64,000 nt of DNA from NCBI GenBank assembly GCA_002701395.1, contig NZVC01000035.1, forward strand, positions 1 through 64,000. Direction: 5' to 3'. The notes under the pieces were generated by a model, which was not told the DNA's origin, made no database searches, and worked only from the letters and a program-made list of their open reading frames with translations. The translations under genes were made by a program, and so were the position numbers. The DNA comes from Maritimibacter sp. GTDB taxonomy: Bacteria; Pseudomonadota; Alphaproteobacteria; Rhodobacterales; Rhodobacteraceae. Each line of letters begins with the position of its first letter. The stretch's first letter is position 1. Of this stretch, positions 910 through 10,238 are shown piece after piece.

Positions 910-2262
910 ATGGAACAGCAGCTCATCGAACTCGGGCAGAAGGTGGCGGCGCTCGAAGCCAGCGCCAAGATCTCCGATGCCGTCAACATGGAGATCTTCT
1001 ACTGGTGGTGCACCGCCCTGATGATCACCATCCACGCCGGCTTCCTCGCCTATGAGATGGGCGCGTCGCGGGCCAAGAACGTGCTGGCCGCGGGGACCAA
1101 GAACCTCCTCGCCTTCGCCTTCGTGGTGCCGACCTTCTTCTTCTTCGGCTGGTGGATCTACAACGCCTTTCCGACCGGCCTGACCATCTCCGACGGGGCG
1201 GACGCCGCCCTGCCCTGGTCGAGCGCCATGGGCCCGAACCTGTCCGACAACGCCACCGGCGTCTTCTGGGCGGCCTTCGCGCTGTTCGCCGCGACCACCG
1301 CCTCGATCATGTCCGGCGCGGTGATCGAGCGGATCCGGCTGACCGCCTTCCTGATGCTGTCGATCGTGCTCGGCTCGGTGATCTGGATCCTCGGCGCGGC
1401 CTGGGGCTGGCATCCGGCCGGCTGGCTGACGACGGAATTCGGCTTCCACGACGTCGGCGCCGCCGGCTGCGTCCATCTCGTCGCCGGCGCCTTCACCCTC
1501 GGCGTCCTGATCAATCTCGGCCCGCGCATCGGCAAGTACAATGCCGACGGCACGCCGAACGCCATCAAGGCCCATTCGGTGCCGCTCACCGTCGTCGGTC
1601 TGATGCTGATCATCGTCGGCTTCTTCGGCTTCCTCGGCGGCTGTATCATCTACATCCCCGGCGAGCAGTGGCAGAACATCTACGGTCAGCCGACCACCCT
1701 GTCCGCCTTTGCCTTCAACACGCTCATGGGCATGGCAGGCGGCATCATCGGCGCTTGGATGAAGACCCGCGATCCGTTCTGGATGATGTCCGGCGCGCTG
1801 ATCGGCATCTTCGCCGCGGCGTCCGGGCTTGATGTCTACTATCCGCCCGTCGCGTTCCTGCTGGGTACCTTCGCCGGCTTTGTCGTGCCGATGGTCGCGG
1901 TCAAGCTGGAGAAGATGGGGATCGACGACGCAGTGGGCGCCTTCCCGGTGCACGGCATCGGCGGCCTGATCGGCGTGGTTGCCTGCGGCATCTTCGCGGC
2001 CGGTTATCCAAACGTCGGCGAAGGCTATCCGCCGGTCTCGCTGATCGGCCAGATCGTCGGCGCGATCACGATGGCGCTGCTGGGCTTCATCCCGGGTTAC
2101 GTCGTCTCGTTGATCCTGAAGATGTTCGGCCTGCTGCGCGTGCCGGATCACATTCAGGAAATCGGGCTCGACGTGGTCAAGGTGCCGGTCGAGGCCTATC
2201 CCGAGGGCTACATTCCCGGCCCTGTCACCACCATCGACCCCGGCGCAGCGCCGGCAGAGTAA
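910..2262 (+). CDS. amt: Ammonium transporter, Amt/Mep/Rh family
   Basis: A 450-residue polytopic inner-membrane protein that conducts ammonium for nitrogen assimilation. The Amt pore signatures are present: D181 and H189 in HDVGAAGCVHLVAG (equivalent to AmtB Asp160/His168) and H348 in AFPVHGIGGLIG (the second histidine of the twin-His pore). The C-terminal tail RVPDHIQEIGLDVVKVPVEA corresponds to the cytosolic region that contacts GlnK/PII in AmtB, so PII control is likely, although no glnK is in view. The start is set by AAGGAG 6 nt upstream of the ATG. The sigma-54-like promoter upstream suggests expression under nitrogen limitation. A 57-codon gene follows 12 nt downstream, before a strong terminator. 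Leucine codons are dominated by CTG/CTC with almost no CTT, unlike genes after 2.5 kb. Confidence 0.92.
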   Translation: MEQQLIELGQKVAALEASAKISDAVNMEIFYWWCTALMITIHAGFLAYEMGASRAKNVLAAGTKNLLAFAFVVPTFFFFGWWIYNAFPTGLTISDGADAALPWSSAMGPNLSDNATGVFWAAFALFAATTASIMSGAVIERIRLTAFLMLSIVLGSVIWILGAAWGWHPAGWLTTEFGFHDVGAAGCVHLVAGAFTLGVLINLGPRIGKYNADGTPNAIKAHSVPLTVVGLMLIIVGFFGFLGGCIIYIPGEQWQNIYGQPTTLSAFAFNTLMGMAGGIIGAWMKTRDPFWMMSGALIGIFAAASGLDVYYPPVAFLLGTFAGFVVPMVAVKLEKMGIDDAVGAFPVHGIGGLIGVVACGIFAAGYPNVGEGYPPVSLIGQIVGAITMALLGFIPGYVVSLILKMFGLLRVPDHIQEIGLDVVKVPVEAYPEGYIPGPVTTIDPGAAPAE

Positions 2263-2274
2263 AGGAGCAACCGC

Positions 2275-2448
2275 ATGAACACTTCTCCGATCACCAGCTG
2301 GGACGGGGCCGAGGCCATCTTCACCTGGGCCGACAGCCCGATGATGATGGGCATCGCCCTGATCGGCGCGCTGGCCGTCACGGTGGGGGCCATCGTCTAC
2401 GCCGCGTCGCACGACAAGCACGCCTACGCGAGCTACAAGCCGAAATAA
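2275..2448 (+). CDS. 57-residue single-span membrane peptide, probably co-transcribed with amt
   Basis: An ATG 12 nt after the amt stop, preceded by AAAGGAG, opens a 57-codon ORF that ends 28 bp before a strong terminator. The product starts MNTSPITSWDGAEAIFTWAD, has one hydrophobic segment (about residues 23-44, MMMGIALIGALAVTVGAIVY) and a short basic tail ending YASYKPK. A good ribosome-binding site, the tight spacing and position inside the amt transcription unit argue it is real. I do not recognise a family. A small accessory subunit or stabiliser of the transporter is one possibility, but that is inference from position only. Confidence 0.65.
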   Translation: MNTSPITSWDGAEAIFTWADSPMMMGIALIGALAVTVGAIVYAASHDKHAYASYKPK

Positions 2449-2476
2449 CACACGCGCACGAACACGCGTCTGGATC

Positions 2477-2504
2477 GGGCGGCCCTTCGGGGTCGCCCTT
2501 TTCT
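2477..2504 (+). terminator. Intrinsic terminator after the amt unit
   Basis: GGGCGGCC (2477-2484) pairs with GGTCGCCC (2491-2498, one G-T) around CTTCGG, followed by TTTTCTT. It closes the amt unit and abuts the stop codon of the convergent DUF3299 gene. Confidence 0.85.
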
Positions 2505-3031
2505 TATCCAGCGTAGGCTTCGACCGTGTCGGCCGAGATCGCGTAGCCGATTTCGGCAAGCTGGGTCGAGGTCGCAGCGGCGCCGAACATGCCCGTTACG
2601 GTCACTGGCTCGAACAGGCCGTCGGATTCGTAGGGCCTGTCGGTCGTCGTCACCAGAACCAGCTGGTTCGCGGGCGGCGGCGGGACGTGGATGCAGGCGC
2701 CGACATAGGGCACCAGCATGAACACCGACACGCCGGTCCCCTCGTAATCCAACGGCACGATGAAGCCGGACAGCTTGACGATCTTTCCGTTCAGGTCGGT
2801 GCGGATGCCGCTTGCGGGCGGTTGCTGGCTGGCCAGATCGCCCGCGCTGTGATCGACAACACCGGCGAGTTCTTCGGGAAGCGCAGGCTCTCCCTCGGGC
2901 AACAGGTCGCGCCATTCCAGTTCGACGACGTCTTCCGCGCGAAGCGGCGCGGGCAGAAAACCCGCAGCGGCAAGGCCAGCAAGCATTGCGCGGCGCGATA
3001 CGCGCTGTCGGCCAGGATCTGTCGTCTGCAT
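2504..3031 (-). CDS. DUF3299 secreted protein of a ZrgA-type metal-uptake operon
   Basis: 175 residues. The N-terminus has a twin-arginine-like signal: SRRAMLAGLAAAGFLPAPLRA with probable cleavage after LRA. The mature part matches DUF3299 in outline: LNGKIVKLSGFIVPLDY followed by LVPYVGACIHVPPPPANQ, a cysteine- and histidine-bearing stretch that could bind metal. I chose the ATG at 3031 because GGAA lies just upstream; an in-frame ATG at 3049 is an alternative. It is the last gene of a minus-strand unit (DUF2796 protein, ATPase, FtsX-like permease, this gene). That set resembles the Zrg zinc-uptake locus described in Vibrio, which suggests a periplasmic role in zinc handling. The exact biochemical role is unknown. 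Confidence 0.75.
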   Translation of the reverse strand: MQTTDPGRQRVSRRAMLAGLAAAGFLPAPLRAEDVVELEWRDLLPEGEPALPEELAGVVDHSAGDLASQQPPASGIRTDLNGKIVKLSGFIVPLDYEGTGVSVFMLVPYVGACIHVPPPPANQLVLVTTTDRPYESDGLFEPVTVTGMFGAAATSTQLAEIGYAISADTVEAYAG

Positions 3032-3075
3032 TCCGGGGTTCCTTTCCATGCGGCGCAGCGTGTCAGGCCGACGCT

Positions 3076-4326
3076 TCAAGTTCTTACCATCATGCCATCC
3101 GCAAGCGACAGCCGGTAGGCCCGCAGCGCCGGCAGCAGGCTTGCCAAACCAGCGGCGACGATCACGCCGCCCAATACCACCGCCTCGTGCAGCGACGGCG
3201 CCTCGATCGGCAGCCACAAGCCAAAGGCCGCGTCGATCCACGGGCGCAGCACCATCATGCCGCCATACAGCAGGGCAATCCCCAGCACGGCACCCGCCAG
3301 CGCCATCAGAACGGCTTCCAGCACCAGCAGCCCAAGGATCGTCATCGGGCGTGCTCCCATTGCGCGCCAGATCGCCATCTCGCGGCGGCGTTCGTTGAGG
3401 CTGGAGAAGATCATCGCCATCATGCCCAGCAAGGCGGTGACCACCACCATGCCCGACACCCCGATCAGCGCGGTCTCGGCGATTCCGACGATCTGCCATA
3501 GCTCTTGCAACGCGACGCCCGGCAGCACCGCCAACAGGGGCTCTTCCGGGTATTCGTTGATCCAGCGTTGCAGCCCGAAGATTTGCAGCCGGGATTCGAC
3601 CCCCACCAGCGCCGCGGTGATCGCGGTCGGCGTCAGGTCCATCTGTCGGATCGCCTCGACCGGGGTGGCCTGTCCGGGGCTCTGGGCACCGCTTTGCCAG
3701 TCGACGTGGATCGCTGCGATCGCCTCCAAACCGACGATGACGGTGCGATCGACCGGTGTACCGGTCTTGCCGATGATGCCCGCCACACGGAACGGCTGGT
3801 CGTCGTGCTCGGTGAACGAGGCCAGACCGTGCGCCACCACGATCGGATCGCCGACCGAATAGCCCAGCGTCTCGGCCACGTCGGCCCCGATCACCGCGTC
3901 GTACAGGTCGCCCAGACCCTGCCCCTGCACGATGTCCAGCGACCGCCCCCCGCGGTAGCGGTAGTGGGTGAAGAACGCGTCGGTGGTGCCCATCACGCGG
4001 AATTGCCGGTGGCTGTCGCCAAGCGAAATCGGCACGATCCAGTCGACCTCGGGCCGGGCCGCGATATCTTGATAGCTTTCCCACGTCACGTTGTTCGTCG
4101 CGTTGCCGATCCGGAACACAGAATACAGCAAAAGCTGCACCGACCCGGACCGCGCCCCCACGATCAGGTCGGTCCCCGAGATCGTGTCCGCGAAACTGGC
4201 GCGCGCGCCGGTGCGCACCTTCTCGACGCCAAGGAACAACGCCACCGACAGGGCGATGGCCAGCACCGTCATCCCCACGGTCAAGACCCGCGCCAGAAGC
4301 GAGCCGATGGCAAGGCGCAGGATCAT
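3076..4326 (-). CDS. FtsX/MacB-type ABC transporter permease of the zinc-uptake-like operon
   Basis: 416 residues with the FtsX-family build: an N-terminal membrane helix (about residues 15-35, VLTVGMTVLAIALSVALFLG), a large periplasmic MacB-PCD-like domain to about residue 285, then three C-terminal helices (ETALIGVSGMVVVTALLGMM, ILGLLVLEAVLMALAGAVLG and VVLGGVIVAAGLASLLPALR). Such permeases usually do not import solutes directly; they transmit ATPase motion to the periplasm. The gene overlaps the ATPase gene upstream by 4 nt, so the two are translationally coupled, and DUF3299 follows. Its likely role is the membrane subunit of a ZrgA-associated system. The exporter-like fold in a putative uptake system is unusual, and the mechanism is not clear from sequence. 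Confidence 0.82.
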   Translation of the reverse strand: MILRLAIGSLLARVLTVGMTVLAIALSVALFLGVEKVRTGARASFADTISGTDLIVGARSGSVQLLLYSVFRIGNATNNVTWESYQDIAARPEVDWIVPISLGDSHRQFRVMGTTDAFFTHYRYRGGRSLDIVQGQGLGDLYDAVIGADVAETLGYSVGDPIVVAHGLASFTEHDDQPFRVAGIIGKTGTPVDRTVIVGLEAIAAIHVDWQSGAQSPGQATPVEAIRQMDLTPTAITAALVGVESRLQIFGLQRWINEYPEEPLLAVLPGVALQELWQIVGIAETALIGVSGMVVVTALLGMMAMIFSSLNERRREMAIWRAMGARPMTILGLLVLEAVLMALAGAVLGIALLYGGMMVLRPWIDAAFGLWLPIEAPSLHEAVVLGGVIVAAGLASLLPALRAYRLSLADGMMVRT

Positions 4327-5015
4327 GCGGCAGTCCTTTGCGTGGTCACGATGTCTTCAAGACGGATCACCCGGTCGAACCTGTCGCCCAGCCGCTCGTC
4401 GTGGCTGACCATCAGCAGGGATGACCCCGCCTCGGCGGTACGCTCGAACAGCAGTTTCAGGAAAGTGTCCTGCGTCGCGGCATCCAGCGCGGACGTGGGC
4501 TCGTCGGCGACAATCAGCGGCGGCGCCCCGATCAGCGCACGCGCCACGGCGACCCGCTGTTGCTGCCCCACGCTGAGCCGTCCGGCAGGCAAGGCCGCCA
4601 CGCCCTCGGGCAGCCCAAGGGCGCTGCACAGCCGGTCCGCCTCTGCCGTGCCGCCAGCGCGTCGACGGCGGTCCGGGGCAAAGCGCAGGGGCAGCAGGAT
4701 GTTGTCCGATACACTGGCATAGGGCAGCAGGTTGAACTGCTGGAAGATCACCCCGATCCGCTCGGCGCGGAACCTGTCACGACGTCCCCCGCTCAGCGAT
4801 TTCAGATCGGTTCCGCCCACGGACACGGATCCGCTGTCGGCGGTGACGATACCGCAGACCAGCGACAGCAGCGTCGACTTTCCCGACCCGCTGGCGCCAA
4901 GAAGCAAAACGCTTTCACCGGGCGCCAGCGCAAAGGCCGGACAGGTCAGCCGAAAGCCTGCCCGACCCGGCCAGCCGTAGCTGACGTCGCGCAGGGCAAG
5001 CGCAGGTTCGGACAT
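4323..5015 (-). CDS. ABC transporter ATP-binding protein of the zinc-uptake-like operon
   Basis: 230 residues from the ATG at 5015. Walker A is GASGSGKST (residues 40-48), the signature is LSVGQ (147-151), Walker B is LIVADEP (167-173), and the switch region is MVSHDE. It is close to the LolD/MacB subgroup that pairs with FtsX-type permeases, which is exactly its downstream neighbour. A TTG at 5021 overlapping the stop codon of the upstream DUF2796 gene is an alternative start and would give a TTGA overlap. In either case translation is probably coupled along the operon. It should energise the membrane complex from the cytoplasm. Confidence 0.85.
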   Translation of the reverse strand: MSEPALALRDVSYGWPGRAGFRLTCPAFALAPGESVLLLGASGSGKSTLLSLVCGIVTADSGSVSVGGTDLKSLSGGRRDRFRAERIGVIFQQFNLLPYASVSDNILLPLRFAPDRRRRAGGTAEADRLCSALGLPEGVAALPAGRLSVGQQQRVAVARALIGAPPLIVADEPTSALDAATQDTFLKLLFERTAEAGSSLLMVSHDERLGDRFDRVIRLEDIVTTQRTAA

Positions 5016-5017
5016 GG

Positions 5018-5608
5018 TCAATCGATCGTCATTTCGGGCGCATCACGGGTGACCTCGGCGGAACCGGCGCCCGAATCCGTCACGTACTGCACCTCGATCT
5101 CCTGCGCGTTTTCGAATTGATCGAAGTACGGGAAACGCAGTGTGTTCAAAGCCTCGGGGCTGGCGCATTCGAAGACGAAGTGCGCGGTGAATGCACTGTG
5201 CGACGCTTCGTGCTCATGGTCGTGGTCATGATCCTCGGCGTGATCGTCATGGGCGTGATCCTCGGCGTGCTCGTCATGATGGTCGTCATGCTCTTCGAGG
5301 GCATAGGCGGCATCGCCATCGACCAACTCGCACCCTGCGGCATCCGGCAGGGAAACGACGGTCGCGGCATCCGACAGCCGGATAACAGAGGTGTCGACGG
5401 CCATCGCCTCGGTTTCTGACGACGGCATGTACTCGAAGCCGACGATGTCCATCCCCGGCGCGTCCAGCCGCATCTCGACAGTCCCGCCGTCGATCGCGAC
5501 TTGCAGTGTGCTGACGCCGTGAACGTGCGCGCTGAGTTCGCGATGTTCCTGCGCCAAAAGCGGCGCCGCAGCGACCGAAGCCAGAAGAGCGAGGCTGATG
5601 GTTTTCAT
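5018..5608 (-). CDS. ZrgA-like periplasmic zinc-binding protein (DUF2796)
   Basis: 196 residues. A signal peptide (MKTISLALLASVAAAPLLAQ, cleavage after LAQ) is followed by EHRELSAHVHGVSTLQVAID, the conserved opening of DUF2796 with the H-x-H-G motif. A His/Asp/Glu-rich loop occupies residues 106-137 and contains about a dozen histidines, the hallmark of ZrgA and of other periplasmic zinc chaperones. DUF2796 proteins such as Vibrio ZrgA support zinc uptake. It is the first gene of the four-gene minus-strand operon, and a Zur-like palindrome lies 30 bp upstream, so expression under zinc starvation is likely. The His-rich stretch is encoded by CAC/CAT-GAC/GAC repeats and looks repetitive at DNA level. 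Confidence 0.85.
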   Translation of the reverse strand: MKTISLALLASVAAAPLLAQEHRELSAHVHGVSTLQVAIDGGTVEMRLDAPGMDIVGFEYMPSSETEAMAVDTSVIRLSDAATVVSLPDAAGCELVDGDAAYALEEHDDHHDEHAEDHAHDDHAEDHDHDHEHEASHSAFTAHFVFECASPEALNTLRFPYFDQFENAQEIEVQYVTDSGAGSAEVTRDAPEMTID

Positions 5609-5637
5609 GTCGTATCCCTTATCCGAAGTTGGGCGTA

Positions 5638-5652
5638 TGTTATTCTATAACG
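5638..5652. promoter_or_regulatory. Candidate Zur operator upstream of the ZrgA-like operon
   Basis: TGTTAT-TCT-ATAACG is an inverted repeat with one terminal mismatch, matching the TGTTAT-N3-ATAACA form of alphaproteobacterial Zur boxes. It lies 30 bp upstream of the start codon of the DUF2796 gene, a promoter position. Together with the His-rich first gene it points to zinc-repressed expression. No zur gene is in the window. Confidence 0.65.
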
Positions 5653-5761
5653 CTCCGAGATCAACGCGATAATCGGCGCTGTGTGCCGGGCTTTGAAAGA
5701 CATGGCGTTGGATTGGGAACTGGTCGGGGAAGCGGTCTTGTCAGCGACGCCCCCGAAAACG

Positions 5762-5784
5762 AAAAAGGGCCCCGAGGGGGCCCT
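5762..5784 (-). terminator. Intrinsic terminator after tRNA-Pro
   Basis: On the minus strand GGGCCCC-CTC-GGGGCCC (5767-5783) is followed directly by TTTTTC (5766-5761). It lies 10 nt downstream of the tRNA-Pro CCA end. Confidence 0.85.
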
Positions 5785-5793
5785 TGATCCAAT

Positions 5794-5870
5794 TGGTCGG
5801 AGTGGCGAGATTCGAACTCACGACCCCTGCCTCCCGAAGACAGTGCTCTACCAGGCTGAGCTACACTCCG
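5794..5870 (-). tRNA. tRNA-Pro (anticodon CGG)
   Basis: The acceptor arms CGGAGTG and CACTCCG pair perfectly, followed by discriminator A and an encoded CCA. The anticodon stem CTGTC/GGCAG encloses the loop TTCGGGA, giving anticodon CGG, which reads CCG proline codons. The T-arm has GTTCGAATC. Length is 77 nt. A terminator follows immediately. Confidence 0.95.
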
Positions 5871-5928
5871 ACCGTGGCGGGTGCAGTATCCCCTCGTCGC
5901 GGCATTTGCAATACCCCATCTACCACCT

Positions 5929-6903
5929 TTATTGCGCCCGCGCCGGAGTGCGGCGCGAGATCCGTGCAAGTGCAGACACACGGGGTGTCGTGCCCGTCTC
6001 GGCGCGGGACTTCGTGCGCAGCACCGGGGTCACGCGGGACATGCCGCCAAGGCTTTCGCGCAGCACGATGTAGACCCCGCTTGAGATGATGATTCCCGCC
6101 CCGATCCACGTCACCGTGTCCGGCACCTCGTCGAAGAACAGACTGCCGAAGATGGCGGCCCAGATCATCTGGGAATAGTGCATCGGCGCCACGATGGCCG
6201 CGTCGCCGTTCTTGTACGCCTGAATCATCAGGATGCCCGCGATGAACGCCAAAGAGGCCATCAGCCCGACCAGCCCAAGGTCGACCAGCGGCATCGGCGT
6301 GTAGACCACCGGCAGCGCCAGCGCCATGACGACGAAGTTCGCCATCATCGGGTACAACAGCAACACCGCGCTGCGTTCGTCTTGCCCGATCTTTCGAACG
6401 ATGATCGACACAAGCGAGCCGGTGAACGCCCCCACGACAGCCGCAAGGTGGCCCAAGGTGAAGTCGGACGCACCGGGACGCAGCACGACGACAACGCCGA
6501 CCAGCCCCACGAAGACGGCTGCCCAGCGATGGCGGCCCACCGTCTCACCCAGGATGGGGATGGAAAGCACGGTGATCAGCAGCGGCTGCGCGAAGATGAT
6601 CGCATAGACCTCTGCCATCGGAAGCGTCGCAAAGGCGTAGAACACGCACAGGCCGGTGATGACCGCGCAGCCCGTGCGCAAGGCCGTCCACCACGGGTGT
6701 TTCGGGATCAGCGTATCCGCCGTCCGGTCGCGCATCAGCATGAGCATGACCAGCGGAAAGCTAAGAAGCACGCTGTAGAAAATGATCTGAAAGGTCGACA
6801 GGGTCGCGCCCAGCGTCTTCACGACCACGTCGTGGGTCGAGAACAAGGCGAAACCGGCCAGCGCGAAGAGCGCGCCCTTGATGTTGGATTTTGGTGCAGA
6901 CAT
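5929..6903 (-). CDS. DMT-superfamily (EamA) drug/metabolite exporter
   Basis: 324 residues with ten predicted membrane spans in two EamA repeats: residues 1-150 open KGALFALAGFALFSTHDVVV, and the second repeat begins near LGHLAAVVGAFTGSLVSIIV. The E in TLPMAEVYAIIFAQPLLITV is the conserved acidic residue at the end of the first repeat. DMT proteins export amino acids, nucleobases or drugs across the inner membrane; the substrate cannot be assigned. It stands alone, with tRNA-Pro downstream on the same strand and leuB upstream. The basic tail RISRRTPARAQ is cytoplasmic. Confidence 0.85.
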   Translation of the reverse strand: MSAPKSNIKGALFALAGFALFSTHDVVVKTLGATLSTFQIIFYSVLLSFPLVMLMLMRDRTADTLIPKHPWWTALRTGCAVITGLCVFYAFATLPMAEVYAIIFAQPLLITVLSIPILGETVGRHRWAAVFVGLVGVVVVLRPGASDFTLGHLAAVVGAFTGSLVSIIVRKIGQDERSAVLLLYPMMANFVVMALALPVVYTPMPLVDLGLVGLMASLAFIAGILMIQAYKNGDAAIVAPMHYSQMIWAAIFGSLFFDEVPDTVTWIGAGIIISSGVYIVLRESLGGMSRVTPVLRTKSRAETGTTPRVSALARISRRTPARAQ

Positions 6904-7017
6904 TCGGCAAACCTAGGATGGTTGCCTTGGACTTTGTGTTAACCGGCGGCAGGGTCAAGCCATGCCGCCGGTATTGCACGATTTTTCAGCCCGATCGGCG
7001 GGCTTTCGATCACCGTA

Positions 7018-8124
7018 TTAAAGCGATGCGTCCAGCTTGGCGACGACCGCGTCGCCCATCTCGGCGGTCGAGACCGGCTGGACCCCGTCTTCGCCAAGAA
7101 GGTCGGCGGTGCGCAGGCCGTCGGCCAGCACGGCGTTCACGGCCTCTTCCAGCCGGGTCGCCTCGTCGCCCTTGTCGAACGAGTACCGCAGCGCCATAGC
7201 GAAGGACAGGATACAGGCGATCGGGTTCGCCTTGCCGGTGCCGGCGATGTCGGGGGCCGAGCCGTGGACGGGTTCGTACAGGGCCTTGGGCCGGCCGTTC
7301 GCCATCGGGGCGCCCAGCGATGCCGAGGGCAGCATCCCAAGCGAGCCGGTCAGCATCGCCGCCAGATCCGACAGCAGGTCGCCGAACAGGTTGTCGGTGA
7401 CGATCACGTCGAACTGCTTGGGCCAGCGGGTCAGCTGCATCGCACCGGCGTCGGCGTACATGTGCGACAGTTCGACATCCGGGTATTCTGCGTCGTGGAT
7501 TTCCTGCACCACGTCGCGCCACAGCACGCCCGATTCCATCACGTTGGCCTTCTCCATCGAGCAGACCTTGTTGTCGCGCTTGCGGGCCAGTTCAAAGGCG
7601 GACCGGGCGACACGGGCGATCTCGGATTCGGTGTAGCGCTGCGTGTTGATGCCGACGCGCTCGTTGCCTTCCTTGAACACGCCACGCGGCTCGCCGAAGT
7701 ACACGCCCGAGGTCAGCTCGCGGATGATCATGATGTCCAGACCGGCAACCACGTCTTTCTTCAGCGAAGAGAAATCCGCCAGCGCGTCGAAGCACTGGGC
7801 CGGGCGCAGGTTGGCGTACAGGTCCATTTCCTTGCGCAGGCGCAGCAGGCCGCGCTCGGGCTTCACGCTGAAATCGAGGGTGTCGTACTTGGGGCCGCCC
7901 ACGGCGCCCAGAAGTACGGCGTCGACCTCTTGCGCCTTGGCCATCGTCTCGTCGGTCAGGGGCGTGCCGTGCGCGTCGTAGGCGCAGCCGCCGACAAGGT
8001 CCTCGCTGACGTCGAAGGCCATGTCGCGCTTAGCACCGAACCAGTCGATCACCTTGCGGACTTCGGCCATCACCTCGGGGCCGATGCCGTCGCCGGGCAG
8101 GATCAGAAGCGAGGGGTTGGACAT
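7018..8124 (-). CDS. leuB: 3-isopropylmalate dehydrogenase
   Basis: 368 residues, the normal LeuB length. It oxidatively decarboxylates 3-isopropylmalate to 2-oxoisocaproate with NAD in leucine synthesis. Family signatures are [14 protein letters not shown] at the N-terminus, the substrate-binding arginines in [14 protein letters not shown], and the metal/NAD motif [20 protein letters not shown] chose the ATG at 8124 (MSNPSLL) because GGAAGGGAAC precedes it and the product then begins as LeuB proteins do; the longer open frame upstream has no such support. leuD and leuC lie 2.7 kb away on the same strand, separated by two unrelated genes, so leuB has its own promoter. Confidence 0.95.
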
Positions 8125-8316
8125 GCGCGGGTTCCCTTCCTTTATGTCGTTCTCACGGGTCGGGCATCGCCTATCCCGGCGTTGCCGGGGGGTCAAGAAA
8201 CCTTGGGGTTTCGCTGCATTGCGGCAAGGCCGTATCTGCGCGCTTGGGTGGGCGGAAGAGAACACGGCCGGTGCCGCGTGAAGCGGGCCGCACATCCCGG
8301 TACGGCAGCCTGCGCG

Positions 8317-9414
8317 TCAGCCCGGCACGTCAAGATCGACCCACACCAGACGGTGACGCGGCAGCCCCTCTCCCTCGACCAGCGGTCGAAGCGGGTCGCC
8401 TGCCACGGGCCAGAACACCCCGGCGTCTGTCACGGCCAAGGCACGGTCCGGCAACACGTAGCTGACACGCAGGTTCCCCGGGCCGGGATCGTCGGACCAG
8501 TCGGCGGTGTCCAGCGCCGCGTCCCCGGCTTGGCCAGTATTCGCACCGCCGTGCACCACGGCAGCCTTTGTGCCGCCCGCGCTGCGGGGGCGCGGGTCCT
8601 GCAGCCGGGCGTGCCCGATCAGGTCGCGGATCGCCGTTTGCCGCCCCTCGCCGTCGGACGGGTCGAGATTGGCGTTGCCCAGCACGACCACCGCATCCTC
8701 CGGCGGCGGCCCAAGCCCGCCATCAAGGTAGACGGACCACAACGCGATCTCATCATGGTTTCGAAGGCCATTGGCGTCTTCGGGTCCGTCGAACACTGGC
8801 GTGGTTGCCGCGAAGCACAGCAGGTGCAACCGCCCGCCATCCGGCAGGATCACCGGCACGTCCCAGTGCCCGGTCGAGGACAGCCGCAGCGCCGCCTGCG
8901 CCTGAGGCGAGGGAAAGGGCTGTCCGTTCACCATCGGCGGGCGACCCCAAGCAAGATCCGCCCACAGAAGGTCAGAAAAGTCCTGCACCTTCGCGCTGTC
9001 GATCGGCAGGCGCGACAGCAGCACCATCGCCCCCTGCCCCGCGAACCATCCATAGCCTTGCGCATCCCGTGGCCCACCGGTCCGGCCATCGCCGTCCATG
9101 TCCAGCCCGGTGGCCAGCCCGGCATTCGACGGCAGCGCGAACAGGTGGGGATAGCCCGCGCCAGCCGTGGCCAATCGCGTTTCTAGCGCGCGAGCGGCGG
9201 CAAGCTTCAGGTCCCAGTCGAAGCCGGTCAGCAACAGGATGTCGGGCGAAACATGGGCGATCACGTCCACGACGGCGGCGACATCGGGATCTTCCCCGGC
9301 AAGGATATCGCGCAGCAGCAAGCCGGGGCCGCGTCGCTGCATCTCGACATGCCAAGTCGCCACGCGCAGGGGCTCTGCGGCGGCGGGAAGGACCAACAGG
9401 AAAAGAAGGATCAG
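8317..9414 (-). CDS. Secreted endonuclease/exonuclease/phosphatase-family protein
   Basis: About 365 residues. The hydrophobic N-terminus (LILLFLLVLPAAAEPLRVAT) reads as a signal peptide, so the protein is probably exported. The EEP fold is suggested by LRVATWHVEM, by AAVVDVIAHVSPDILLLTGFDWD (the usual early strand and metal region) and by VVVLGNANLDPSDG, where GNANLDP stands for the catalytic GDxN motif of the family. The early Glu of typical EEP nucleases is not obvious, so it may cleave phosphodiesters or be a divergent relative. The start is uncertain: no ATG or GTG fits, and the best position is a CTG at 9414 overlapping the stop codon of the upstream membrane-protein gene (CTGA). An in-frame ATG at 9540 would overlap that gene by 130 nt. 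Confidence 0.7.
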   Translation of the reverse strand: MILLFLLVLPAAAEPLRVATWHVEMQRRGPGLLLRDILAGEDPDVAAVVDVIAHVSPDILLLTGFDWDLKLAAARALETRLATAGAGYPHLFALPSNAGLATGLDMDGDGRTGGPRDAQGYGWFAGQGAMVLLSRLPIDSAKVQDFSDLLWADLAWGRPPMVNGQPFPSPQAQAALRLSSTGHWDVPVILPDGGRLHLLCFAATTPVFDGPEDANGLRNHDEIALWSVYLDGGLGPPPEDAVVVLGNANLDPSDGEGRQTAIRDLIGHARLQDPRPRSAGGTKAAVVHGGANTGQAGDAALDTADWSDDPGPGNLRVSYVLPDRALAVTDAGVFWPVAGDPLRPLVEGEGLPRHRLVWVDLDVPG

Positions 9415-10238
9415 GCTGGCTGCATCTCGTCGCGGCCAGCGATGGCGCGCTTGCGTTCGATCAGCGCCGCGATGCGGCCCATCGCAAGGCCGCGCATCAG
9501 AAGGCTTGAGGGAAGGAAGGCCCATGCCGCAACGATCCACACCATCGACTGCGGATTCTCCAGCGTGACCTGACCGAACAGGTTCTCGGACGCTTTCAGC
9601 GCAGCCGGGATGAAGAATGGCATGGTAAATCCTACCACGATGTTAAAGCGCGCATCCCGTTCAAGGCGCTGCACCACGTCGCCACCGGTGGTCGGGTCGA
9701 AGGTGGGCAGGTTCACCCAAACATTGAAAGGGCCGCGATGCAGCGGCCAGTTCTTCACGCGAACACAGAAGTAAAAGATCGCAAGCGTCAGCATCGAGAA
9801 GAAATAGCTGATCCCCGCCGCGGTCCGCACCCGATCCACATGGGTCAGGTTGGCGTCGTCGGGCAAGAGCAGCACGATCTGGCGGACGGGGCTGTAGGGA
9901 AAGTCGATCGCGGCGCCGATCCCGGTGCCCAGATCGGTGATCATATCCGTCAGCGCCGATGGCGAGGTTTCTCCGCGGATCACCACGGAGATCATGAAGA
10001 CGATCAGAAACAATGCGAGGAAACGCAGCCGATTGAACGGCGGGGCGTTACGGAACTCGACGATGCCGGGATAGACAGAGGCGTATTCGAAGATGGTCAG
10101 GGCCGCTGCGAAGATCGAGATCAGCGCCACGACCTGCGTCACGTCGGACGTCACTCCTGGCAACAGGAGGGACGGTGTCGCAATAAGCAACACCACAAGG
10201 ACCGCGCGCACAATGGCGCCTGCAAGTCGCGAAATCAC
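9411..10238 (-). CDS. Uncharacterised integral membrane protein
   Basis: 275 residues with five or six hydrophobic spans: residues 10-28, 33-52, a pair around 72-88, one near 140-160 (ISYFFSMLTLAIFYFCVRV) and others near 205-225 and 233-250. It begins MISRLAGAIVRAVLVVLLIA and ends with a charged tail (RKRAIAGRDEMQPA) in the cytoplasm. I do not recognise a characterised family; proteins of this look are conserved but unnamed in Rhodobacterales. Its 3' end overlaps the start region of the secreted EEP protein, so the two are probably co-transcribed. No catalytic motif is visible. Confidence 0.7.
   Translation of the reverse strand: MISRLAGAIVRAVLVVLLIATPSLLLPGVTSDVTQVVALISIFAAALTIFEYASVYPGIVEFRNAPPFNRLRFLALFLIVFMISVVIRGETSPSALTDMITDLGTGIGAAIDFPYSPVRQIVLLLPDDANLTHVDRVRTAAGISYFFSMLTLAIFYFCVRVKNWPLHRGPFNVWVNLPTFDPTTGGDVVQRLERDARFNIVVGFTMPFFIPAALKASENLFGQVTLENPQSMVWIVAAWAFLPSSLLMRGLAMGRIAALIERKRAIAGRDEMQPA

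Follow-up and report, generated by a model that had tools for sequence, protein, structure and literature searches.

Gene content of the zrg operon

The 64,000-nucleotide stretch of Maritimibacter sp. analysed in this study (contig NZVC01000035.1, assembly GCA_002701395.1; hereafter the window) carries a minus-strand set of four closely spaced genes at 2504-5608, encoding ZrgA, an ATP-binding cassette (ABC) ATPase, an FtsX/MacB-type permease and a DUF3299 protein (Table 1; genes were called with a simple open reading frame (ORF) script). The ATPase and permease genes overlap by 4 bp (ATGA), and the gaps between zrgA and the ATPase gene and between the permease and DUF3299 genes are 2 bp and 26 bp, respectively; therefore, a single operon is the natural reading. 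Coordinates, gene calls and families bear out the sequence-only reading of this DNA, which had placed these four proteins in one operon. The operon is a well-supported member of the known Zrg family, which includes Vibrio ZrgABCDE and Pseudomonas PA4063-PA4066, and its gene identity, operon structure, in-genome motif set, permease fold class and conserved residues were established here computationally.

ZrgA scored 173.4 bits against PF10986 (cut-off 27.4) and has a His-rich loop and, judged by eye, a Sec-type signal peptide. The DUF3299 protein, ZrgE, scored 122.8 bits against PF11736 (cut-off 22) and begins with a twin-arginine-like signal, SRRAML, likewise assigned by eye. Its sole strong relative among solved structures is PA4066 (4hsp), which is OB-fold-like and of unknown role. 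For the ATPase, the ATG at 5015 was chosen from the sequence, with an in-frame TTG at 5021 as the alternative start. The protein stayed below the cut-off of the best 25 of the 199 NCBIfam models, which were headed by DevA, followed by FtsE and LolD; thus, the earlier label "LolD-like" is loose.

Neither the binding protein family PF01297 nor the permease family PF00950 matched any of the four operon proteins at E <= 0.1, and both families are present elsewhere in the genome. The operon leaves no room for zrgD (DUF2607; the remainder of the genome was not searched), and its four genes do not include a MacA-type adaptor gene (adaptor genes elsewhere were not searched). PADLOC returned a single weak match, in the C-terminal region of the permease.

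Table 1. Positions of the zrg operon, its putative Zur box and associated features (window coordinates unless a locus is named)
Feature	Position	Strand	Remarks
Putative Zur box GTTATAGAATAACAT	5637-5651	minus	28 bp upstream of the zrgA start codon
zrgA, His-rich ZrgA-family protein	5018-5608	minus	PF10986, E 4.7e-51; 196 aa
ABC ATPase (ZrgC in Vibrio naming)	4323-5015	minus	PF00005, E 8.3e-29
FtsX/MacB-class permease (ZrgB)	3076-4326	minus	PF02687 FtsX, E 2.2e-14; PF12704 MacB_PCD, E 1.7e-13; 416 aa
DUF3299 protein (ZrgE)	2504-3049	minus	PF11736, E 1.5e-35; 181 aa
tRNA-Pro (cgg)	5794-5870	minus	between the operon and the next upstream gene
Terminator-like stem	5765-5785	minus	follows tRNA-Pro
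ACxFHxYxPE-like protein, about 350 aa	L228:7279-8358	plus	eight distinct loci: L228, L051, L161, L201, L212 (= L044), L218 (= L136), L234, L238

Predicted control by Zur

The palindrome that the sequence-only reading had pointed out upstream of the operon was recovered as the core GTTATTCTATAAC at 5639-5651, an exact match to the 13-bp pattern. According to the literature, Zur of Paracoccus denitrificans binds promoters with a 15-bp motif in gel shift experiments, for example GTAATATAATAACAT before pden1341 (PMC5387054). The box GTTATAGAATAACAT is identical to that site at 13 of 15 bases, and the site predicted in V. parahaemolyticus shares the GTTAT-N3-ATAAC core (PMC9817125).

Genome-wide, the bare 13-bp palindrome occurs exactly at four places: two belong to the zrg copies, and the remaining two are near-identical copies of a further site (C5:125095 and C43:7735), which lies inside an ORF, was taken as chance and was rejected as a Zur site. 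With one mismatch allowed, the pattern barely exceeded its reversed control (13 vs 10 matches per strand). The longer pattern GNWAYNNNATAACAT gave four matches in the 5.3-Mb genome, all at zinc-starvation genes, and its reversed control gave none. The matches lie at the zrg operon, its second copy, the zur/znuA intergenic region, in which a FUR-family gene is divergent from znuA, and the start of a gene for a ZigA-type GTPase. As GNWAYNNNATAACAT was built from Paracoccus sites together with the zrg and znuA sites of this genome, after these had been viewed, only the match at the GTPase gene is independent, and this place was already among the one-mismatch matches of the 13-bp pattern. It falls right where the longest ORF begins, just ahead of a likely later ATG; the gene product belongs to COG0523, with ZigA as best match (578.8 bits against a cut-off of 600).

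The comparative scan used the one 13-bp pattern over about 430 bp upstream of zrgA, with dinucleotide-matched resampled sequence as control. Among the ZrgA loci, 19 of 55 regions, which include this operon and its second copy, had a site with at most one mismatch, compared with 0.6% of resampled sequences; among the permease-scan loci, the figures were 25 of 73 regions and 0.4%. The presence of the palindrome before orthologous operons, a check fixed beforehand, was thus confirmed, though imperfectly, in 44 of the 128 regions of both sets. Fourteen further loci have such a box ahead of a FUR-family gene within the stretch (a hand count outside the resampling control). In Pelagibacteraceae (SAR11), a close box precedes zrgA in all five regions examined, the region of L255 being too short. 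By hand count, a FUR-family gene is present within the fetched stretch in 41 of the 129 ZrgA loci, vs none of 16 control loci; in 33 of the 41 this gene shares the strand of zrgA and either lies no more than 100 bp upstream or overlaps the called ORF. Related genomes contribute non-independent loci to these counts, and some loci are present under two identifiers (129 ZrgA loci, 125 of them distinct).

Taken together, the in-genome motif set and the comparative boxes support the earlier claim of Zur control at the motif level, and the zrg operon is predicted, with high probability, to be regulated by Zur.

Fold and conserved residues of the permease

The alignment and the model of the permease were based on 62 sequences of under 80% identity. 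The single-chain AlphaFold2 model reached a mean predicted local distance difference test score (pLDDT) of 90.5 and a predicted template modelling score (pTM) of 0.79; an earlier model from 13 sequences was poor (pLDDT 49.7) and was discarded. The best relatives in the PDB by Foldseek and VIA-align were LolE, MacB, a pneumococcal MacB-like permease, HrtB, YtrF, BceB and FtsX, with a top VIA Z of 25.8 and a root-mean-square deviation of 3.8 A over 355 residues (5xu1_M). As modelled, the permease is a member of the FtsX/MacB (MacB/LolCDE) fold class, with the large domain after helix 1 that is found in MacB, LolCDE, HrtBA and FtsEX, a superfamily which we take to be the type VII ABC systems. It differs from these relatives in its partners, ZrgA and ZrgE, and in a set of His and Asp residues conserved among Zrg permeases (MacB was not compared residue by residue).

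In this set, H166, H174, H207, D53, D104 and D193 are conserved in 100% and H106 in 97% of the 62 permeases, and all of them lie between the modelled helices 14-46 and 269-312, in the presumed periplasmic part. For ZrgA and DUF3299, conservation was assessed from matches of at least 100 bits. ZrgA residues H28, H30, E59 and C93 are invariant in 113 sequences; the spacing of H28, H30 and E59 equals that of His35, His37 and Glu66, the ligands of zinc site 1 in V. cholerae ZrgA (PMC9820375). Among 167 non-redundant DUF3299 sequences, C119 is conserved in 99% and H121, N128 and Q129 in 100%, with the motif PPPPxNQ.

The sequence-only reading had presented the permease as a puzzle, since importers usually have a different fold. 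The difference is supported by the model and its PDB relatives; its novelty is not, as a MacB-like permease unlike those of known metal importers has already been described (PMC9820375, PMC11481552), and published modelling of PA4064/PA4065 agrees with a MacB-like fold (PMC11481552). The ZrgA-type ABC set was supported by families and fold and its Zur control at the motif level, and the question of how such a permease would handle zinc was in print before.

Distribution and genomic context

Of 397 evenly drawn Pseudomonadota genomes, 84 have ZrgA above its cut-off, 116 have DUF3299 and 82 have both. The commonest gene order is A-C-B-E, as in this operon, and the typical operon contains these four genes only; in some loci ZrgA or DUF3299 stands apart, with other genes intervening (e.g., L141, L145, L150 and L156). 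Four loci (L127, L142, L151 and L157) have ZrgA and no transporter within the fetched stretch, and no ZrgA match was obtained at L213, L231, L235, L247, L256 and L260, several of which are truncated at the end of a contig. Among the matches listed, the nearest named relative is a Maritimibacter genome whose permease is 93% identical.

Six Pelagibacteraceae loci were among the best 80 permease-scan matches. In L244 and L248 the genes form a contiguous island of znuA (divergent), znuC, znuB, a FUR-family gene, zrgA, ATPase, permease and DUF3299, and the island of L248, which was Pfam-tested, ends with a CobW GTPase gene. Half of the SAR11 genomes have been reported to carry znuA together with a Fur-family gene and additional ABC components; zrg is not mentioned in the available part of that account (PMC4771312), and none of the titles and abstract openings listed by our literature search treats zrg in Rhodobacterales or SAR11. 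Within the 125 distinct zrg loci we counted FUR (41), CobW (12), DUF1826 (11), ZnuB (8), MerC (7) and ZIP (at least 4) genes, whereas the 16 DUF3299-only control loci had one MerC, one CobW and none of the other families. A single-seed profile for TonB-dependent receptors matched in one of the 125 loci. A profile of the His-rich SAR11 ZnuA matched 78 of the 125 loci; this was put down to the His-rich stretch of ZrgA, and the row was dropped.

At the strict threshold for ABC-3 (ZnuB-type) permeases (E <= 1e-20), such a permease was missing in 22 of the 84 ZrgA genomes vs 88 of the 313 others (cross-counted by hand). The idea that Zrg replaces Znu was rejected, as there is no association in either direction; Zrg neither requires nor replaces ZnuB. 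The notion of a Znu or ZIP channel in all zrg genomes was rejected as well: in four of the 22 ZnuB-less genomes (G183, G340, G346 and G352) no ZIP match was obtained at E <= 0.001, and three more matched only below the ZIP cut-off.

In several ZnuB-less genomes a putative metal channel gene accompanies zrgA. A ZIP gene lies beside it in G278 and G364 and is divergent from it in G134, G245, G313, G327 and G435, which belong to one family; a MerC gene lies nearby in G242, G245, G346, G352 and G379, so that two of the four genomes without ZnuB and ZIP have MerC. A ZrgA locus was fetched from 40 of the 84 ZrgA genomes; in these, ZIP or MerC was found near ZrgA in 8 of 14 ZnuB-less vs 2 of 26 ZnuB-bearing genomes, the weak match to MerC at L155 (27 bits) not being counted. 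Fisher's p of 0.0012 is not corrected for relatedness and is optimistic, since the genomes are related within families. Both families were detected with few-seed profiles, partly Pfam-tested. At the level of loci, ZIP occurs near zrg genes in L143, L130, L128 and L158 and MerC in L124, L127, L141, L142, L145, L150, L153 and L170, mostly in ZnuB-less genomes.

Condensation domains of non-ribosomal peptide synthetases (NRPS) were searched in 80 zrg genomes, comprising 74 of the 84 ZrgA genomes and six SAR11 genomes (1.0-1.3 Mb, maybe incomplete). None was found at E <= 1e-10 in 59 of the 80, including the present genome and the six SAR11 genomes; therefore, pyochelin is not the general substrate of Zrg.

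Discussion

Zrg appears in print both as an importer, in Vibrio, and as an exporter, in Pseudomonas, and the fold of its permease differs from that of the characterised zinc/manganese importer permease (PMC9820375). The underlying question is whether an ABC complex that transmits force is able to move a metal ion or hand it on. The comparative data narrow this question, in that Zrg neighbours znu and zur in streamlined bacteria of the ocean and also occurs in ZnuB-less genomes, most of the searched zrg genomes are without an NRPS condensation domain, and the permease has few conserved residues of metal-ligand type. The permease His/Asp set, the SAR11 znu-zur-zrg island, the ZIP and MerC genes near zrgA in genomes without ZnuB and the NRPS survey come from this study.

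We favour an explanation, in which we place about even confidence, that this is a Zur-repressed alphaproteobacterial Zrg operon whose force-transmitting ABC complex accepts zinc from ZrgA by way of conserved residues in the periplasm. Zinc-loaded Zur would repress the operon at the box, and zinc starvation would switch it on. The ATPase and the FtsX/MacB-class permease would form a force-transmitting complex of the MacB/LolCDE class, and ZrgA would bind periplasmic zinc and dock on the large periplasmic domain of the permease, where the conserved His/Asp set may receive the metal or strip it from ZrgA. Cytoplasmic ATP hydrolysis would then move the periplasmic domain and thereby release zinc or pass it on towards entry into the cell, through the complex itself or a partner channel; ZrgE, with its C-x-H motif, may help in the hand-over. 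The earlier suggestion of mechanical-energy transfer to a periplasmic or outer-membrane step is made plausible by the fold alone.

Control by zinc and Zur and a need for ZrgA in zinc-poor growth would follow by analogy with published relatives. In Vibrio, Zur controls the zrg genes, and zinc-poor growth without ZnuA requires ZrgA (PMC9820375, PMC9817125); V. cholerae ZrgA binds zinc (PMC9820375). The present operon shares with Vibrio ZrgABCDE the ZrgA (DUF2796), ATPase, FtsX/MacB-like permease and DUF3299 families in the order A-C-B-E. It differs in being without zrgD, which is not a defining member, V. fischeri and P. profundum being without it as well (PMC9817125), and in the shorter His-rich loop of ZrgA, that of V. 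cholerae being particularly long (PMC9820375). The likeness to P. aeruginosa PA4063-PA4066, which is Zur-regulated (PMC8561739, PMC11481552), extends to four families in common (PDB 7ahw, 4hsp), and a znuA zrmB strain grows less well at low zinc once PA4065 is deleted (PMC11481552). ZnuABC and AztABCD of P. denitrificans are zinc ABC systems under a near-matching Zur motif (PMC5387054), but they have a cluster A-I binding protein and a Zn/Mn-type permease, neither of which is in the operon described here.

Several points weigh against the favoured explanation. Close boxes were found in 58 of the 128 regions in total, and 70 were without one at that threshold. ZrgA scored 171.7 against the NCBIfam equivalog model, below its cut-off of 185. 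In V. cholerae, single knockouts of zrgD or zrgE had no effect in chelator (PMC9820375), which argues against a needed role of ZrgE, and in P. aeruginosa the loss of PA4065 raised cobalt, with no relevant change in zinc content (PMC11481552). Moreover, the conserved His and Asp residues of the permease may be structural.

Within the favoured mechanism, two forms are to be kept apart, namely direct import and the loading of a partner channel. In the former, the permease dimer itself would conduct zinc from ZrgA to the cytoplasm in spite of its FtsX/MacB fold, which would be unusual for an importer. This true importer is a possibility of some weight that we nevertheless consider unlikely. It gains from the need for ZrgA in zinc-poor V. 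cholerae when ZnuA is missing (PMC9820375), from the 22 of 84 ZrgA genomes without a strict ABC-3 permease, including the four that also gave no ZIP match, and from G183 and G340, whose stretches near zrg contain no match to the ZIP or MerC profiles. These four genomes may, however, have another channel, as NRAMP, P-type ATPases and CorA were not searched; the fold relatives in the PDB are exporters, lipoprotein extractors and division or sensing complexes, and mechanotransmission is the published view of MacB (cited in PMC9820375 and PMC11481552).

In the latter form, Zrg would be an ATP-driven periplasmic zinc-loading machine of the MacB/LolCDE class rather than a channel, serving exchangeable inner-membrane channels by means of its conserved periplasmic histidines; we put this forward tentatively, as the less probable form. 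Its partners might be ZnuB where znu is present, as in the SAR11 island, and a ZIP or MerC-family protein where ZnuB is missing, a proposal that is equally tentative. G183 and G340, which have neither ZnuB nor ZIP and no ZIP- or MerC-profile match in the stretch near zrg, speak against it.

Beside the favoured force-transmitting transfer of zinc, envelope remodelling or zinc salvage is improbable. The complex would strip zinc from periplasmic proteins, or act on wall or lipoproteins like FtsEX or LolCDE, with an indirect benefit for growth; the kinship in fold with FtsEX and LolCDE and the OB-fold-like PA4066, of unknown role, are compatible with this, whereas the invariant zinc ligands of ZrgA and its published zinc binding (PMC9820375) point to the metal itself. 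Least probable is the export of a metal chelate, as read for PA4063-PA4066 with pyochelin-cobalt (PMC11481552): the MacB-like fold and the P. aeruginosa genetics agree with it, but NRPS condensation domains are missing from this genome and most other zrg genomes searched, the typical operon is confined to A, C, B and E (no search for adaptor or TolC genes was made in the rest of these genomes), and part of the loci contain FUR, CobW, DUF1826, ZnuB, MerC or ZIP genes.

Further observations on the operon and related loci

Upstream of zrgA, the order on the same strand is the 28-bp gap, GTTATAGAATAACAT, the terminator-like stem and the tRNA-Pro gene. No match to a sigma-70-type promoter was obtained within 5560-5900.

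Region 982-10078 has a second copy in the same assembly (G000:C8:1-9097, L036), with 99.9% identity across the zrg operon and 87% inside the ammonium-transporter gene, after which the copies diverge. This may be a real duplication or a mixed-strain assembly, which are indistinguishable given the 9% reported contamination. In genome G017, a single contig carries two zrg operons (L041 and L042).

Among the related loci, L166, L167, L170 and L171 combine the ATPase, permease and DUF3299 without ZrgA, and the permeases of L166 and L167 have about 525 aa and are longer by some 110. Conversely, at L151:5368-7566 and L157:4488-6565 a ZrgA-family gene without ABC genes in the fetched stretch is divergent from an imelysin gene, assigned by Pfam test in L151 and by resemblance in L157. 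A conserved, secreted-looking protein with an N-terminal motif like ACxFHxYxPE is encoded downstream of the permease and before a DUF3299 gene in some loci (Table 1), and the two members tested had no Pfam or NCBIfam match. Two DUF3299 genes, often in tandem, lie 3' of the permease in L041, L042, L044, L048, L049, L125, L126 and many of L184-L231; the operon in the window has one.

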